Assembly: GCA_029261275.1 (NCBI GenBank)
Contig: JAJDBR010000106.1
Span: 1 to 40,342 of the forward strand
DNA length: 40,342 nt
Direction: 5' to 3'
DNA from: Nitrospirales bacterium
GTDB lineage: Bacteria; Nitrospirota; Nitrospiria; Nitrospirales; UBA8639
In this document: one piece after another, positions 13,551 through 31,946 of the stretch
How the letters are laid out: each line of letters opens with the position of its first letter
How positions within the stretch are numbered: the first letter of the stretch is position 1
Translations under genes and position numbers: made by a program
The notes under the pieces: model-generated
Told to the model about the DNA's origin: nothing
Databases searched by the model: none
Seen by the model: only the letters and a program-made list of their open reading frames with translations

Positions 13551-16500
13551 TCATTCCTGGTACACATTAGGATTACCTGAGTCCTTTGGTATCAAACGCG
13601 GCGACTCCGTTGAGGAAGATGTCGAGTTCGTAGAGGATCCGTTCAGAACCTTCCCAGGTGCAAGAACAATATTTCTCAACACATCAAAAGCCAATTGTGC
13701 CAATCCGGTCAACCCTTTTTTAAACGATTCTTTAGGCAAATACACAACTTGCGGTTCTTGCAATGGACCATTGAGGCTAAACAGGGCCGTAGCAATACCT
13801 TTCCGGTCTCCAGAAAAAATTGTCCCAAAAAGCGGAATGGCTTTCAAGGCGTCAGAATAGGCGCCAAAGGGACTCACCGCAATCACCCCATCCAGGTGAT
13901 CCCCTTTAAAATCATAGTTTCCCGCAGCCGTGGCATTCATCACCGGACTCCGAAGTAGAAAGTCCTTTGTCGAGAATTGTCCTTCCGCAATTGTTAACGT
14001 TGCGCCAACAGATTCATAGGGAAATCCAGTCTTTTCGAAGCTCATCTTTCCCTGAAGTACATGAGGAAAATTAAGAATTTGCAGAATTTTTGGGAGAACG
14101 GTTCCTTTTCGAACGTACCCATTTCGTAAAGAAAGTTCGACCCCGCCTTCCAATGTAGGAATGATCCCTTTTTCATCACGTCCATGCCCCTGAATTTTTC
14201 CACGAATATCTAACTGACCTGAAATCAAACGGGTTTCATCGCCTAACACCTTTAAGGTTTTTTCGAAGGGCAGATTTATCCCTTCAAAAGAAGCTCGCAC
14301 CGCAGCCGGCTTTCCTGGGGGAAGATGAACGAATAATCGGCCTTTGACATTCCCGAATTTTTCAACCAGAGCTTGAATTTTATCTATGGAGACCAAATTG
14401 TCATGAACCTTCAATTCTGCAGACAATTTATTCCCCACGAAAGATTTATAACGAGGCCGTTCAATAAAAAGAGATCCCTCTAGCCTTCCATGACTGGCTA
14501 GCCATTCTACTCCGTCTCGCAGAACGGATCGTTCATCGTTGGGAATCAATATATCAAGGTCGAATTGCGGAGCATTCCACAGCACACTCACATGAGGAGT
14601 CGTCTTCCATTGTTTAACAAATCCGGTCACCACTGCTGCACTGTCCTTAATATGAAATTCCATTCGTTTTAAATCAAGTAAATCTTTATCAATACGTAAC
14701 CGAACAAAGACATTCTCAACCGTTTCTTTTAGGCCAGGAATAGTGATAACTCCATCCGTCAAGGCCACCCAGCCTTTCATCTTCCATTTGGTCCAATCTG
14801 TACCCAATCCGTTCCCGCCTATTTGCACTTCCAAGATTCCTGATTGAATCGCATTTTCAAACAACTGAATTTTTTCAGGAAGAACTCCAATAGAAATCGG
14901 GCCAGAATCAAGGCGTCCTTCCCAGCGCCATGTTGGACGGAATCGCCCTACACCTTGGCCTCGTAGACGAAGCGGCAGCATAGCTAATTCAATTCGTTCG
15001 AAGCGAACTGTTCCTCCCGAACGGATATGTCCATCAAATTCCAAGGTTCCGGCTTGTCCCGCCTCTTTTTGCAAGACAGAAGGGATCGACAATGTCGCCT
15101 CTCTTCCGTCAATTTTCCCTTTAAGATTCAAACGATTGATCGGACCACGCATCGTGGCTGAAGCATAAAGAGGCCCGCGTATCTGAATGTCCGATATCGA
15201 TGAAGGTGTGTCCGAGGACCTAAAAAGTTCATGTCCGTCAAACCCAGCAGTCACCTTTATGGGTTCTAATCGAAGGTTGTGTTGATGGATGAGCGTCCCA
15301 TTCAATGAAAAGGGATAGGCTCCCATTTTTCCTTCGATTTCTTCCAAAACCGTGCTGTCAGGAGAAAAATAAACTTTGCCATGCCCCTGGGATAACGAAT
15401 GGGGAAGGTTAGGAATATGTAGCACCACGTTCGTCGGTTGATAGTCACCATTGTAAAAGGTCAGGCCCTGTTCACTGAACAGTTCTCCGGAAAACCGTAA
15501 TCGAAGGAGTCCATTTCCATCAGAGACGTTCCAGGTTTTCCAGCCAGAGGCCTTAGAAGAAATTGGCCTTAAATCCCGAACGAAATTCCACACTTTTTCT
15601 GCGGGAACCTGTCCTTCAATTGCGACATATCCCCACACCCCAGCTTCTTTCAACAGAAGCTCCCCTTTGGTCACTTCAACAAAAATCCCGTCATACATAC
15701 CCTGGGTCTCGGATACATGAACCCTATCAGGCTCAACTACGACCGTAGCCCGAACCTGCTCAGTCTTCGGCCATTCTGGCATGCTTAAAAATCCGTTATT
15801 TACCTGGAACGTTCCCGTCACTGACGTACCCACATCGGACCGAGTTGAACTCGTCATTCGTGCATCGACGATTTGTAATTCCCCCCCCCATTCACCTTGC
15901 TCCCAAAGGTTGGCAAGCGGATCAGGTAGCCATACCTCAGGAACCGTCTCACGAATCATTCCAAGATTCAGACTGGAAGAGCGCAAAGAAACTGACGTCA
16001 TCTGATGCCCATCTGCAAGGCCTTCGATTGTGGCATTGCCCGCGAGCATAAGAGATGAATTCGTGAGTGAAATATTCGAAAATTGGAGCTGAGACGTTGC
16101 TCCTGTTTTTACCCACTTAAATTCCGTATCCACATTGAGTCGCCCAGGCAATTGAGCGAAAACTTCCCGGTGAGACACAAACTCCGCCAATTGATTCACG
16201 GCAATATTGTTCGATTCCATATTTCCCGCAAAGGTCATTTGTTCAAAAAACACGTCCTGCTCGTTCCAGGAGGACAGGGCCACATTTGAAGTGCCTTCAA
16301 ACGTACCAGAGATTCGAAAGGAAGCAGAATCTTGAGACTGACGAAGGTTCCCGGATAAGGCAAGCGAAGAAAGAACCGTCACATCTTCGTAGGAAGTTTC
16401 TGACAAACAAGCCACATTTTCTAAAACCACGCCACGCACAGCCTCAGATGGCGATTCATCAATGACAATAATTTTTCCATTGGTGATCTCGATTTTACCG

Positions 16501-16934
16501 AGCAATAAAAACGAAGCAAGAAATGAAAGAGACGAATCCTCCTTGGAATGTCCTAAAAATCGCCAAACGCCAGACTGCTCGCGATGAATTTCTATTTCTG
16601 GATGGTTAAGAAAGAATTCCTTGACCTCAAGCTTTTTCTGTAACAATTGGCCGACACCTAACTGTAAACTCATTGATTCGGCCCGAAAGACCGCATGGGA
16701 ATCCAGCTGTTCTTTGACCACAATATCGGAGACAAGAAAATGAGGAGACGGGAACAAGGCAAACGACGTGCGCCCTACCTGCACATGTGACCCAAACGTC
16801 CGTTGAATTTGCTGTAAGACGAGGTTCTGCAGATAATCTGGATTTAAAAACCAGGGAAGAATGATCAAGAGAGCTAAAAGGCCAAGGAGGCTGAGCCCTC
16901 CCCATAGTATGGTCTTTTTCACCGAAAAACGCAC
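13551..16934 (-). CDS. AsmA-family envelope protein
   Basis: 1127 residues with one N-terminal membrane anchor (about 9-29, LWGGLSLLGLLALLIILPWF) and a long, beta-rich body with no other hydrophobic segment. The N-terminal part (YLQNLVLQQIQRTFGSHVQVGR, then FPSPHFLVSDIVV) is the AsmA start. The C-terminal part (SLRNGYVRKGTVLPKILQIL, then SPVMNATAAGNYDF and GVIAVSPFGAYSDALKAIPL) matches the C-terminal region shared by AsmA, YhdP and TamB relatives. These proteins are thought to form grooves that move phospholipid between inner and outer membrane. The start is a GTG with GGAG 11 bases upstream; a stop codon lies right before it in frame. It is one of the larger members of its class. Confidence 0.85.
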   Translation of the reverse strand: MRFSVKKTILWGGLSLLGLLALLIILPWFLNPDYLQNLVLQQIQRTFGSHVQVGRTSFALFPSPHFLVSDIVVKEQLDSHAVFRAESMSLQLGVGQLLQKKLEVKEFFLNHPEIEIHREQSGVWRFLGHSKEDSSLSFLASFLLLGKIEITNGKIIVIDESPSEAVRGVVLENVACLSETSYEDVTVLSSLALSGNLRQSQDSASFRISGTFEGTSNVALSSWNEQDVFFEQMTFAGNMESNNIAVNQLAEFVSHREVFAQLPGRLNVDTEFKWVKTGATSQLQFSNISLTNSSLMLAGNATIEGLADGHQMTSVSLRSSSLNLGMIRETVPEVWLPDPLANLWEQGEWGGELQIVDARMTSSTRSDVGTSVTGTFQVNNGFLSMPEWPKTEQVRATVVVEPDRVHVSETQGMYDGIFVEVTKGELLLKEAGVWGYVAIEGQVPAEKVWNFVRDLRPISSKASGWKTWNVSDGNGLLRLRFSGELFSEQGLTFYNGDYQPTNVVLHIPNLPHSLSQGHGKVYFSPDSTVLEEIEGKMGAYPFSLNGTLIHQHNLRLEPIKVTAGFDGHELFRSSDTPSSISDIQIRGPLYASATMRGPINRLNLKGKIDGREATLSIPSVLQKEAGQAGTLEFDGHIRSGGTVRFERIELAMLPLRLRGQGVGRFRPTWRWEGRLDSGPISIGVLPEKIQLFENAIQSGILEVQIGGNGLGTDWTKWKMKGWVALTDGVITIPGLKETVENVFVRLRIDKDLLDLKRMEFHIKDSAAVVTGFVKQWKTTPHVSVLWNAPQFDLDILIPNDERSVLRDGVEWLASHGRLEGSLFIERPRYKSFVGNKLSAELKVHDNLVSIDKIQALVEKFGNVKGRLFVHLPPGKPAAVRASFEGINLPFEKTLKVLGDETRLISGQLDIRGKIQGHGRDEKGIIPTLEGGVELSLRNGYVRKGTVLPKILQILNFPHVLQGKMSFEKTGFPYESVGATLTIAEGQFSTKDFLLRSPVMNATAAGNYDFKGDHLDGVIAVSPFGAYSDALKAIPLFGTIFSGDRKGIATALFSLNGPLQEPQVVYLPKESFKKGLTGLAQLAFDVLRNIVLAPGKVLNGSSTNSTSSSTESPRLIPKDSGNPNVYQE

Positions 16935-26475: not shown

Positions 26476-28131
26476 TCAATGCTTGAGCTGGCGTTGCTCC
26501 ACGATGGCTTGATAATGATGATGGACGCTCTCAGTGTGTTGACGATAAGACGATAGTAACCCTTCAGCAGTTTGTTTAACTGTTTCCCTTTTGGGGTATC
26601 CCAATCTTATCGCACATTTGGCGATCTCCTCAGTTTTAGAAGGCAGAAGATGTGTTTGGAGTTCATGAACCATTTGAATTTTATTTTCGAGATTTCTCAA
26701 AAATATATACGAGGCCTTGAGTTGTTTCATGGCCCCAATTTTTAATTTCCCAACTCGCATTAATTTCATCAAACTTTTCAGTGTCTGGCGATCACGAATG
26801 ATTGGATACCGATAGCCCCACCGCAGCTGGAGGCCTTGCACAATAAATTCAATTTCACGAATGCCACCGATTCCCAATTTGACATTGCGTTCGAGTTCTC
26901 CTCGACGAGTTATCTTGGAGACCATTTGCGCGCGAAGACCATGAATGGCGGTCAATACCTGAGGGGCCATTTCTCTTGTCCCATACACAAACTGGTTGAG
27001 CGTCTTAATGAAAGATTGCCCAATCCGAAGATCGCCGGCAATGGGCTTGGCTTTTAAAAACGCTAATCGTTCCCAGGTCCGTCCCCGCGATTCATAATAT
27101 TGACAGGCATCTTCCACGGAACAGGCCAAGGGACCCACTTGTCCTTCAGGACGCAATCGCATGTCCACTCGAAATAAGGCCCCCTCGGAAGTGGAGACGG
27201 ACAACACGTTCGTGAGTTCCCTCGCTACCGCATGGAAATAGTCTGTGCCTGAAAGAGCCTTCTGCCCTGTACCAGCATTCGTCATTTGTTGCGAATCCTG
27301 AAACACATAGATGAGATCCACATCCGAACTATAATTGAGTTCACAGCCACCCAGTTTTCCCATGGCCAGCACCGAAAAGCCTATTCGATGTTTCGCCTGC
27401 GTTGAGATTGGAGGACCCCAGTTTCCATGCTGACGCTGAAGGTCTTGATCAACCAGTTCATAGGCTGCTTGAATCACCGCTGCCGCCAAATCTGACAGCA
27501 CCGAATAGGTTTCAATGGGCGTGGCAATACCCAGAAGATCCCGAATGCCTAGACGAAGCATTTCCCGTCGTTTTACCCTTCGCAAGGCTTCGCACTTGAC
27601 CTCATAACTTTTCACGGCTGTCAACGCCGTGTGGACAGCTCCCTTCAGATGGGTACTCGTTTGTCGGCGAACGAGAACTCGATCATCTTCGATCCAATAC
27701 ACCAATAAGGGATCTCGGATCAAGGTCTGGGCCATCGACGGGCTGTTCCCAAATACGGTTCCGAGTACCTCAATAATATGGGGCACATTCGACAAATATT
27801 GAAACAGTTGCAGACGATGAATCCCCGAGTCCACATAACGTTCCCATTCATTCAAGGCCTGATCAGGATCGGCGGTCTGTGACACACTAGAAAGTAGGCT
27901 AGGCAGAATGTTCGCAAGAGCTTTGCGAGTATTGGGCTCCCCTGCCATGGCCTGAAGATTGTGGTCGGCTCGTTTCCAATCCTGAATGCCATAGGCTTGG
28001 AGCAGTCGAGCGACTTCGGTCGAAGCCAGGTCCTTCGCGAGTAAAATCGTTGTGGGATCAGGCAACTGAGGTCGCGTCACCTTTTTTCTGCCTCCTGATT
28101 TTTGGGAAAGGTGTTGAGTAGAAGATTTCAT
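26476..28131 (-). CDS. GlnE-like protein, adenylyl-removase (AR) type half
   Basis: 551 residues equal to one half of a normal GlnE. Motifs match the AR half of the E. coli enzyme: AMGKLGGCELNYSSDVDLIY with the metal-binding D270 and D272, then FRVDMRLRPEGQVGPL, and LGIGGIREIEFIVQGLQLRW. In GlnE the AR half removes AMP from glutamine synthetase by phosphorolysis when nitrogen is scarce. The AT-type half is encoded divergently 67 bases away, and glnA lies beyond it. The -10 element of its promoter is so close to the ATG (28131) that the leader would be about five bases; an in-frame TAA inside the -10 excludes an earlier start. Domain type is from motif comparison; activity is inferred. Confidence 0.85.
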   Translation of the reverse strand: MKSSTQHLSQKSGGRKKVTRPQLPDPTTILLAKDLASTEVARLLQAYGIQDWKRADHNLQAMAGEPNTRKALANILPSLLSSVSQTADPDQALNEWERYVDSGIHRLQLFQYLSNVPHIIEVLGTVFGNSPSMAQTLIRDPLLVYWIEDDRVLVRRQTSTHLKGAVHTALTAVKSYEVKCEALRRVKRREMLRLGIRDLLGIATPIETYSVLSDLAAAVIQAAYELVDQDLQRQHGNWGPPISTQAKHRIGFSVLAMGKLGGCELNYSSDVDLIYVFQDSQQMTNAGTGQKALSGTDYFHAVARELTNVLSVSTSEGALFRVDMRLRPEGQVGPLACSVEDACQYYESRGRTWERLAFLKAKPIAGDLRIGQSFIKTLNQFVYGTREMAPQVLTAIHGLRAQMVSKITRRGELERNVKLGIGGIREIEFIVQGLQLRWGYRYPIIRDRQTLKSLMKLMRVGKLKIGAMKQLKASYIFLRNLENKIQMVHELQTHLLPSKTEEIAKCAIRLGYPKRETVKQTAEGLLSSYRQHTESVHHHYQAIVEQRQLKH

Positions 28132-28142
28132 GAAGAAAAGAA

Positions 28143-28193
28143 ATTATACGAGACCGAACCACACCTTACAATGCTATGAAATTTGAGTATACT
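28143..28193. promoter_or_regulatory. Divergent promoter pair sharing one -35 element
   Basis: Minus strand: TTGTAA (28171-28166), 17 bases, perfect TATAAT (28148-28143). Plus strand: CTTACA (28165-28170), 17 bases, TATACT (28188-28193). The two -35 hexamers overlap by five bases, so only one polymerase should bind at a time. Transcription would begin about five bases before the AR gene and almost at the ATG of the AT gene. Confidence 0.65.
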
Positions 28194-28198
28194 CCACG

Positions 28199-30460
28199 AT
28201 GATGAATTCTTCAGCTTTACTCGAACAGATTCAACACCGCGCCTCACATCTCCCCATCTCGCTAGCGAAAGATTTCCTTGCCAAGATGGACCAGGATTAT
28301 TTCGAGCAATTCCCTCTCGACACCATTCTTCAACATCTTGATCTAACCGCTCAGCTCACCTTCGCCTCTCCCTGTTCGGTGACCATCGCTCCCCTGTCCT
28401 CCAAACAATATCAGGTACATGTGGTGGCCTATGATTATTTTTCAGAATTTGCCACATTCTGTGGCCTGTTGGCCTCCTTCGGTCTCGATATTCGCGAGGC
28501 CGCCATTTTCACGTCTCGAGAGACGCCGGTTTCATCAGGTCAAAAAATTCAAGCTTCCTCAAAACTCAACCCATGGACACGTGCTCCCCTCAAGCGCCCA
28601 GCTCAGGGTTTAACTCGAAAGTTCGCCGTAGATGTCTTTCGTGTTCAAGCGGTAAAAGGGTTTGCCTTCGACTCGTCCGCCCAACATGACTTCAAACAAC
28701 ACTTGCATGCCCTGCTGCGATTGCTCCAAAAAAATCAGGTGCGCCAAGCTCGACGACAGGTCAATCTCCGTCTCATTGAAAATCTTGGGAAAACTCCAAA
28801 AAAGACAGGAGATATCCTCCATCCTGTCCATATTACGTTTTCCAATCCCTCCTCTTCGCCAGACACCGTGTTGGATATTCGGTCAACCGACACACGGGCC
28901 TTTCTCTATGCATTTGCCAATGCCTTGGCCATGCGTGGCATTTACCTGGTCAAAGCCAAAATTGAAGTCAAAGACCACCAGGTCTTGAATCGACTCTATG
29001 TCCGAGGCCGTCAGGGCGGAAAAATTCAAAGCCAAGCAGAGCAGCAGGAACTCCGAACCGCAGCCGCACTCCTTAAAGAATTCACCTATTACTTAAGTTG
29101 GGCACCCGACCCTGGAAAAGCGCTCGATCATTTTGATCAATTCCTAGATCAGCTCTTGGAGCAACCCCAGAAGGCTTCGACGTTGAGCACTTTGGGGCAA
29201 GCCTCCACCATGGAACATCTCGCACAGTTGTTTGGCAGCAGTGATTATCTCTGGGAGGATTTACTGCGGCGGCAGCATGACAATCTTTTGCCCATGATGC
29301 GGCACTATCAAAAAGGCCCCTTGGTTCGCTCCAAATTCGTGTTGACCAAAACTCTTGAGAAACGGTTGCAGCAGGCCAAGACAGTCGCACAAAAAAAGAA
29401 GGCTCTGAACCAATTCAAGGACGAAGAACTGTTCCGAATTGACATGCGTCATCTTTTGGAAACCAGTTCACTTCATGATTTTTCTCACGCCCTCACAAAT
29501 TTAGCTGATGTGATTTTAGGGCAAGCACTCGAACAATCCTATCGTGTCATGAAGCCGAAAGGCTCGCGGACACCCCCACCTCCCATGGCCATTTTTGGAT
29601 TGGGGAAATTAGGTGGGGGCGAACTGGGTTATGCCTCAGACATTGAAATTCTTTTTGTCTATGATAACCCTGAGCCATCGAAAACCCGTCAAGCATCCAA
29701 AATCTCAGCTGATTTCTATGAACGATGGTCCCAGGAATTTCTTCAATGGATTGAAGCCAAGCAAGAAGGCATTTTCCATGTCGATACCCGACTGCGTCCG
29801 AATGGCGACAAAGGCACCTTGGCTAATTCGCTAGGAGAAATTCAACAGTATTACGATAGTCAGGGAAGGGCCGCAGCATTTGAACGACAAGCCTTCATTA
29901 AGCTCCGATTTGTGGCTGGCCATCGTGCCTTAGGAAAAGCCGTTGAATCCCATCGGAATCGCTTTGTCTACGGAGCTGAACCATGGGCCCTCCCAAGCGC
30001 TCTGTACCTTCGACAGCGACAAATGGCCGAACTCGTTCAGGCTGGCTCCACACATGTGAAGTATGGCGCTGGGGGATTACTGGATGTGGAATATCTGGTG
30101 CAATATCTTCAGCTCATTCATGGGCATCAGCACCCGTCCCTTCGCACACCGAATACCTTAGAGGCCATCGAGCACCTGTGCCATGCCTCCCTCCTCTCAT
30201 TATCTGAAAGGGAAACCCTACATGAGGATTACCTTTTTTTTCGACAATTGATTGATGGTTTGCGCATTGTGCGAGGGAATGCCAAAGACCTCGTTTTGCC
30301 GCCGTCAGGATCTGACGAAATGGTGTTTCTTGCTCGCCGGTTGGGAATGGGTTCCACGGATTGGCAGAAGAGTGCTCAAACATTTGAGCAGACGACCCTG
30401 GAACGAATGTCTATTATTCACGAACGTTTTCTGAAACATTTTCCACGAAATAATGCCTGA
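28199..30460 (+). CDS. GlnE-like protein, adenylyltransferase (AT) type half with ACT-like domains
   Basis: 753 residues. The N-terminal 290 hold two ACT-like regions, about 58-106 (VHVVAYDYFSEFATFCGLLA) and 222-270 (VLDIRSTDTRAFLYAFANAL), in the style of GlnD, where ACT domains sense glutamine. The C-terminal half matches the AT domain of GlnE: FGLGKLGGGELGYASDIEIL, FHVDTRLRPNGDKGTL and YGAGGLLDVEYLVQYLQL. AT adds AMP to glutamine synthetase. The catalytic pair usually reads D-x-D; here it is D481-I-E483. An in-frame TGA 13 bases before the ATG excludes an earlier start, and the promoter puts transcription at or next to the ATG, so the message looks leaderless. The stop codon lies inside the terminator shared with glnA. 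Confidence 0.85.
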   Translation: MMNSSALLEQIQHRASHLPISLAKDFLAKMDQDYFEQFPLDTILQHLDLTAQLTFASPCSVTIAPLSSKQYQVHVVAYDYFSEFATFCGLLASFGLDIREAAIFTSRETPVSSGQKIQASSKLNPWTRAPLKRPAQGLTRKFAVDVFRVQAVKGFAFDSSAQHDFKQHLHALLRLLQKNQVRQARRQVNLRLIENLGKTPKKTGDILHPVHITFSNPSSSPDTVLDIRSTDTRAFLYAFANALAMRGIYLVKAKIEVKDHQVLNRLYVRGRQGGKIQSQAEQQELRTAAALLKEFTYYLSWAPDPGKALDHFDQFLDQLLEQPQKASTLSTLGQASTMEHLAQLFGSSDYLWEDLLRRQHDNLLPMMRHYQKGPLVRSKFVLTKTLEKRLQQAKTVAQKKKALNQFKDEELFRIDMRHLLETSSLHDFSHALTNLADVILGQALEQSYRVMKPKGSRTPPPPMAIFGLGKLGGGELGYASDIEILFVYDNPEPSKTRQASKISADFYERWSQEFLQWIEAKQEGIFHVDTRLRPNGDKGTLANSLGEIQQYYDSQGRAAAFERQAFIKLRFVAGHRALGKAVESHRNRFVYGAEPWALPSALYLRQRQMAELVQAGSTHVKYGAGGLLDVEYLVQYLQLIHGHQHPSLRTPNTLEAIEHLCHASLLSLSERETLHEDYLFFRQLIDGLRIVRGNAKDLVLPPSGSDEMVFLARRLGMGSTDWQKSAQTFEQTTLERMSIIHERFLKHFPRNNA

Positions 30461-30536: not shown

Positions 30537-31946
30537 CTACACGTCGTAATACATGAAAAATTCATGGGGATGCGGTCTAAGACGCATCGGATCCACTTCA
30601 TTGTCTCGTTTATAGGAAATCCAAGCTTCGACTAAATCTTCAGTGAACACCCCGCCTTTCAGGAGAAATTCATAATCATTGGCCAAATTGTCTAACGCCT
30701 CATCTAAGCTAGATGGTAACGTCTGGATATTCCCTAATTCTTCCGGTTCTAAATCATAAAGGTTCTTGTCCATAGCTTCGCCAGGATCGATTTTATTTTG
30801 AATACCATCCAATCCCGCCATCAACATGGCACTAAAAGCCAAATACATATTGCACGAAGGATCTGGGAAGCGTACTTCAATGCGTTTCGCTTTTGGGCTG
30901 GGTGAATACATCGGAATCCGAATGGCTGCCGATCGGTTGCGACTAGAATAGGCTAACATCACAGGAGCCTCGAATCCTGGCACGAGCCGCTTATACGAAT
31001 TGGTCGTGGGATTCGTTAAGGCCGCCAAGGCTGGGCCATGCTTGATAATCCCACCAATATAATAGAGGCATTGTTGAGACACGCCGGCATAATCTTTCCC
31101 AGCAAATGAAGGCTTTCCACCTTTCCAAATACTTTGATGGGTGTGCATGCCTGTCCCATTATCACCAAAGACCGGCTTGGGCATAAACGTCGCCGTTTTC
31201 CCATGACGTCGAGCCACATTGCGCACAATGTATTTATACATCATCATTTGATCGGCCATTTTGACCAGGGTGTCGAAGCGGAGATCGATTTCGGCTTGCC
31301 CTGCCGTGGCCACTTCATGATGATGCTTTTCCACACGGATACCAGCTCGTTCCATTTCGCGACACATTTCTGATCGGATATCTTGTTGCGAATCGACCGG
31401 AGACACAGGGAAATAGCCTTCCTTATGTCGAGGACGCGATCCCAGATTTTCGCCATCTTTTCCTGAATTCCAAATCCCTTCTTCCGAATCGACGAAATAA
31501 TAGCCAGAGTGACTATTTTGTTCATAACTCACATGATCGAAAATAAAGAATTCGGCCTCCGGCCCCCAGTAGGAGGTATCTCCAATCTTCGTATGCTTGA
31601 GATATTGTTCGGCTCGCATGGCCACACCACGAGGATCCCGTTCATAGATGGTGCGAGTAATAGGATCTTGGACATTGGATACCATGCTCAGGGTTGGGAT
31701 CTCCGTGAACGGATCCATCCGTGCTGTATTAGGATCCGGCACCACCAACATGTCACTGTTTTGGATGGCTTTCCACCCACGAATGGAGGAACCATCAAAT
31801 CCTGATCCTTCTTTAAATAAGTCGAGGGATAATTCGGAGGTAGGAATAGAAAAATGCTGCCATGTTCCAACCAAATCGATAAATTTTAGGTCGACCATTT
31901 CGACCTTGTTCTTCTTGGCAAAATCCAACACTTCTTTCGGGGTCAT
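30537..31946 (-). CDS. glnA: Glutamine synthetase type I
   Basis: 469 residues, the length of the bacterial dodecameric GSI-beta enzyme. It joins ammonium to glutamate with ATP. Visible blocks: [20 protein letters not shown], the metal-site [10 protein letters not shown], the ATP-site region [13 protein letters not shown], the substrate-site [20 protein letters not shown] and the C-terminal NLYDLEPEE. The last contains the tyrosine (Tyr397 in the E. coli enzyme) that GlnE adenylylates, so the target for the neighbouring split GlnE is present. GAAGGAGG precedes the ATG. It is the last gene of the porin-amtB-glnB-amtB-glnA run. No sigma54 -24/-12 pattern was found in the 85 bases upstream. Confidence 0.98.

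Follow-up and report, generated by a model that had tools for sequence, protein, structure and literature searches.

The locus and its genes

The window analysed here is the whole 40,342-nt contig JAJDBR010000106.1 of assembly GCA_029261275.1 (Nitrospirales bacterium; source genome 3.8 Mb), and its nearest relatives are Nitrospirota/Nitrospirales MAGs. It carries two divergent genes which both match the GlnE and GlnD_UR_UTase families, and which appear to encode the deadenylylase half of GlnE (AR) on the minus strand and, on the plus strand, the adenylylating half (AT) fused to a GlnD-type ACT region (Table 1). Downstream of this pair lie the gene for a type I glutamine synthetase, which is the probable substrate, genes for two ammonium transporters, and a gene for PII. 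A canonical GlnD is encoded separately from the ACT-AT gene.

Table 1 Genes and predicted promoter elements at the divergent glnE locus (positions within the window)
Feature	Position	Strand	Remarks
AR half of GlnE (deadenylylase/N-half)	26476–28131	−	551 aa; PF03710 + PF08335; N-half clade 100/100
AR start codon	28129–28131	−	at 11 nt from its -10; not preceded by a Shine-Dalgarno sequence
Predicted minus -10, TATAAT	28143–28148 (read 28148–28143)	−	17-nt spacer; exact in 73/76 loci
Predicted plus -35, CTTACA	28165–28170	+	overlaps minus -35 at 28166–28170
Predicted minus -35, TTGTAA	28166–28171 (read 28171–28166)	−	TTGT at 17 nt conserved
TT at -18/-17 of predicted plus promoter	28182–28183	+	T in 36/47 and 42/47 loci
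Predicted plus -10, TATACT, with conserved G before it	28188–28193	+	17-nt spacer; exact in 73/76 loci
Likely ACT-AT start codon	28202–28204	+	8 nt after -10; alternative ATG 28199–28201, 5 nt after -10
Probable GlnE AT half, GlnD-type ACT region at its N-terminus (residues ~23–288)	28202–30460	+	nucleotidyltransferase motif SDIE
Type I glutamine synthetase with adenylylation-site motif (probable substrate)	30537–31946	−	motif with target Tyr

To place the two proteins with regard to fused GlnE, we used a domain tree. The minus protein grouped with the N-halves of fused GlnE (100/100) and its motif, SDVD, fits SDxD, which marks the gene as a clear GlnE N-half by sequence. The plus protein fell outside the N-half clade (100/100), on a long branch that also lay apart from the C-halves, and because of this exclusion and the long branch its probable identity as a diverged AT half is reached by elimination. 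The sequence-only reading had named the genes as the AR and AT halves of the enzyme; the tree bears this out for AR, whereas for AT, with its long branch and SDIE motif, the name stands only by elimination. Assignment of AT by best PDB match failed, both halves scoring higher against the AR structure 1V4A than against the AT structure 3K7D.

SDIE replaces SDxD in all 27 plus-protein sequences compared, with D481, E483 (not D) and D529, the candidates for the three catalytic acidic residues, invariant among them. Glutamate is permitted at the acidic position of the nucleotidyltransferase motif in this superfamily. Residues 23–288 match residues 620–844 of GlnD, the C-terminal ACT pair (E 3.9e-17), and 21/27 relatives have an ACT-like Pfam match; the structural model (mean pLDDT 78) matched ACT-like folds at weak E. 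The plus gene can thus be described as a chimera of GlnD-type ACT and GlnE nucleotidyltransferase, with SDIE and not SDxD, that is conserved across Nitrospirales, and no report of such a GlnD-ACT/GlnE-AT chimera was found in the literature searched.

Distribution of the split glnE

In the 48 genomes of the order with both glnE halves on one contig, the halves were on opposite strands in every case (48/48, counted from the table of genomes), and they remain head-to-head while their neighbours (glnA, amt, glnK) vary between genomes. Several Nitrospirales genomes contained neither half. Elsewhere in Nitrospirota both domains are, as a rule, encoded within one frame of 929–1170 aa. A split, divergent glnE is the usual state in Nitrospirales and was not seen in the rest of the phylum sampled. 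Like the bifunctional GlnE (ATase) of E. coli and most Nitrospirota, the Nitrospirales version comprises AR and AT nucleotidyltransferase domains and occurs with a glutamine synthetase bearing the target Tyr motif; unlike it, this version is split into two divergent genes, its AT carries a GlnD-type ACT, and SDIE stands for SDxD. A literature search covering a split GlnE as well as leaderless transcription in Nitrospira returned nothing relevant.

Predicted promoter elements between the glnE halves

A re-reading of the sequence shows that the 67 bases separating the glnE halves hold both predicted promoters, each strand having a -10, a -35 and a 17-nt spacer. The near-symmetric -35 box CTTACAA reads CTTACA on one strand and TTGTAA on the other, so that five bases (28166–28170) are common to both -35 boxes and the elements of the two strands physically overlap. 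Each of these -35s matches the sigma70 consensus at 4/6 positions. On re-reading, the hexamers initially claimed (TTGTAA-17-TATAAT and CTTACA-17-TATACT), together with the 5-base -35 overlap, proved exact, as did the in-frame stops near the starts, namely TAA at 28146–28144 inside the minus -10 and TGA at 28184–28186 for the plus gene. Elements, spacing and conservation agree with the proposal of two sigma70-type promoters with a common -35 in the window.

In a consensus scan of 20 kb, the minus promoter (10/12) ranked best of 20 matches. These 20 promoter-like matches compare with 24.4 ± 4.5 in shuffles and are not above random; because hexamer matches are no commoner than in shuffles, the promoter claim rests on conservation. 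About 0.1 pairs this good with overlapping -35s are expected per 40 kb of first-order random sequence, against two in the window. The other of these promoter-like divergent pairs, at 14376–14427, lies inside a long minus-strand ORF (13551–16934) and is probably due to chance.

Conservation across Nitrospirales

We compared 76 related Nitrospirales loci with the divergent pair, the window counted among them, across which protein identity falls to 42–50%. Both -10s (ATTATA...TATACT) are exact in 73/76. Conservation of the hexamers in relatives had been set beforehand as a check on the promoter proposal, and non-conservation was not found. Among the 73 loci the distance between the -10s is 37–40 nt in 67, 63 nt in three, 19 nt in two and 32 nt in one. 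Additional Nitrospirales genera gave both exact copies and exceptions. Since the loci were anchored on the -10s, base counts for these elements are biased upward, a bias of which the -35, spacer and start-codon results are free.

Once near-duplicates were removed (47 loci), the TTGT placed 17 nt away from the minus -10 was kept in 43–47/47 loci per base. A G in front of each -10 and the predicted plus promoter's TT at -18/-17 were also conserved. AT-rich sequence near -18 has been described as making up for an absent -35 (PMC12825309). The C and G directly flanking the minus -35 hexamer (28164–28173) are likewise conserved, in 40/47 and 42/47 loci, and are not accounted for by sigma70 recognition alone. 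The sequence elements, their spacing, their conservation and the coupling of the gene pair are direct observations. Searched with 30–50 nt between its halves, the -10 pair pattern had a single occurrence in every one of three Nitrospira genomes, at the glnE locus.

Some loci depart from the common layout. In L017, L021, L079 and L151 a distance of 63 nt separates the -10s and there are two copies of the ACAATG box, and in L018 and L025 there are 19 nt between the -10s, the common box is deleted and the plus ATG lies farther off. Contig G000:C204, unlike other contigs, has several AT-rich pattern matches and is possibly foreign to its genome bin.

Extent of -35 sharing

To evaluate how widely the -35 is shared, matches to TTGACA were scored at every spacer length on both strands. 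In the window's family, represented by 13 non-redundant loci, each strand scores highest at exactly 17 nt (4.0/6), and in seven other loci of 39–40 nt both again peak at 17 nt (3.0 and 3.14). In contrast, among 18 loci of the 37–38 nt type the minus strand peaks at 17 nt (3.17), whereas the plus strand has no peak there (2.11), and most Nitrospira sensu stricto have a plus -35 that is out of register. Loci of the 37–38, 63 and 19 nt types show no sharing. Sharing thus characterises the window's family and certain other groups, including some Nitrospira, and not the whole order. The common -35 of the sequence-only reading accordingly stands for the window's family and for some Nitrospira; it does not for the 37–38 nt type, which has the minus -35 only, nor for the 63-nt lineage.

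The sister genus g2 has lost the minus -10 and still has CTnACA at a 17-nt distance from the plus -10 (mean 3.4/6, pulled down by a wrong-strand match at locus L130). Because g2 keeps the plus -35 alone and most Nitrospira the minus -35 alone, the box can serve either direction. The g2 loci (L123, L124, L128, L130–L134, L136 and L137), with the minus -10 lost and the plus promoter kept, offer a natural test of the common box.

Start codons and leaders

For start codons, the ATG was traced by reading backwards from each protein's conserved region, and the tallies were counted by hand from the table of loci. An in-frame ATG lies 6–15 nt after the -10 for AR in 37/44 loci, having been lost near the start in 7/44, and 5–11 nt after it for AT in 38/44, lost near the start in 6/44. 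Across the 44 loci a Shine-Dalgarno sequence is missing before the near-start ATGs, with one exception. For the plus gene we favour 28202 over 28199, since the ATG of relatives falls 7–8 nt after the -10. A GTG at 28080 (minus strand, inside the AR gene, with an SD-like AGGAGG before it) was considered as the AR start and rejected, as it is not conserved in relatives.

If transcription starts ~7 nt after each -10, the leaders would be 0 to ~8 nt long and both messages would be leaderless or nearly so. The leaderless messages proposed at the outset thus fit, in a near-leaderless form, both the -10-to-ATG spacing and the missing Shine-Dalgarno sequences, with starts that are predicted. The glnE genes resemble known leaderless mRNAs in that their -10s stand just 5–15 nt before the start codon, with no Shine-Dalgarno sequence, but few genes of this kind occur in the genome stretches sampled. 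Leaderless genes as a general habit were rejected, being only a few of the 277 and 161 called genes in the stretches surveyed (400 kb of N. moscoviensis and ~250 kb of the window's own genome).

Comparison with known divergent promoters

Overlapping back-to-back divergent promoters are known from lambda PR/PRM, where the upstream elements abut or overlap. Unlike that system, the glnE pair includes no regulator gene, and its products are two halves of one enzyme. In the bidirectional promoters of E. coli and Salmonella, as would apply at glnE, opposite polymerases cannot bind together and a near-symmetric element serves both strands (PMC12825309, PMC10268837). However, in the bidirectional promoters of Warman, Grainger and colleagues the -10 is shared and divergent starts are 7–25 bp apart (PMC10268837), whereas the glnE gap shares a -35. 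With its separate -10s and predicted starts ~64–66 bp apart, the gap falls outside the bidirectional promoters as Warman et al. define them. We therefore accept the predicted architecture as a variant of overlapping divergent promoters.

Proposed mechanism and alternatives

Based on these comparisons, we consider it probable that back-to-back housekeeping-type promoters on one near-symmetric -35 drive two mRNAs that are nearly leaderless, of which one encodes the deadenylylase half of GlnE and the other its ACT-fused adenylylating half. In this way a single compact site would keep both parts of a once-fused enzyme expressed. The predicted starts (~28136 and 28200–28202) are closer than two polymerase footprints allow, and, judging from known footprints, one polymerase should therefore exclude the other. 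Both promoters would be active and their exclusion may matter for the AR:AT ratio. Competition for one site would make the ratio of firing independent of polymerase level, which renders a fixed ratio plausible, and the fixed or mutually exclusive ratio first suggested for the two halves is in our view conceivable. A more specific version, where the common -35 acts as ratio-setter, AR:AT is set by the -10/-35 strengths and buffered against polymerase level so that the switch stays balanced despite the split, and ACT-AT adds direct glutamine sensing, we regard as unlikely.

Counting against the shared, back-to-back arrangement are the -35 matches to the consensus, at just 3–4/6 positions among loci, the gap types that share no -35, the near-start ATGs lost at some loci, and the conserved C and G beside the minus -35. 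The same weak -35 matches would suit promoters that are real but weak, brought together by a compact gap only and firing independently, with no measurable interference or ratio control. To this we give an even chance; it is compatible with the shared architecture and contests the regulatory effect only. In E. coli, basal firing of bidirectional promoters is usually too weak for competition, although activating one side can repress the other (PMC12825309). All five that were tested (5/5) lacked the basal strength needed for polymerases to compete, and exclusion at one site therefore need not mean measurable interference (PMC12825309). The 63-nt lineages also part the two promoters yet retain the gene pair. 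Against independent firing, however, 37–40 nt are kept in 67/73 loci, beyond what independence needs, and to this lineage kinship contributes.

The remaining alternatives concern the box itself. It could be the -35 of the minus promoter only, with the plus promoter working by its -10 and the TT at -18/-17, as holds for most Nitrospira (in the 37–38 nt type the plus score at 17 nt is 2.1/6 versus 3.17 for minus) and as the conserved TT would suggest; we think this improbable as an account of the window, given the single plus-strand peak at 17 nt (4.0/6) in its family and the CTnACA that genus g2 retains at 17 nt with the minus -10 gone. That the box is chiefly the binding site of a putative regulator of both genes, its likeness to a -35 being secondary, would suit the conservation beyond the hexamer (CRTTGTNNG) and the two copies of the ACAATG box in the 63-nt lineage, but seems quite improbable: nearly all loci place the box at a distance of exactly 17 nt from the minus -10, and no dyad was seen. 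As a regulon motif, CCTTACAAYG was rejected, with no enrichment over the reversed control in the genome stretches, where the extended promoter pattern with one mismatch was just slightly above control and not clearly enriched. Mere chance likeness to promoters within a short, AT-richer gap, in keeping with the frequency of matches in shuffles, is extremely improbable, since both -10s and their spacing are kept across genomes at ~42–50% protein identity and the pattern was found once per genome in three Nitrospira genomes, always at glnE.

Implications

The opposing activities of a bifunctional enzyme, normally held at 1:1 in one chain, are in this nitrifier order encoded by two genes with predicted overlapping promoters. 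The natural variants of the gap (-35 shared, shifted or separated, or minus -10 lost) are a ready test series. The GlnD-ACT/GlnE-AT chimera suggests that glutamine sensing has been rewired in Nitrospira, and, should the AR:AT ratio be set by the promoter overlap, the overlap would be a promoter-level substitute for gene fusion.
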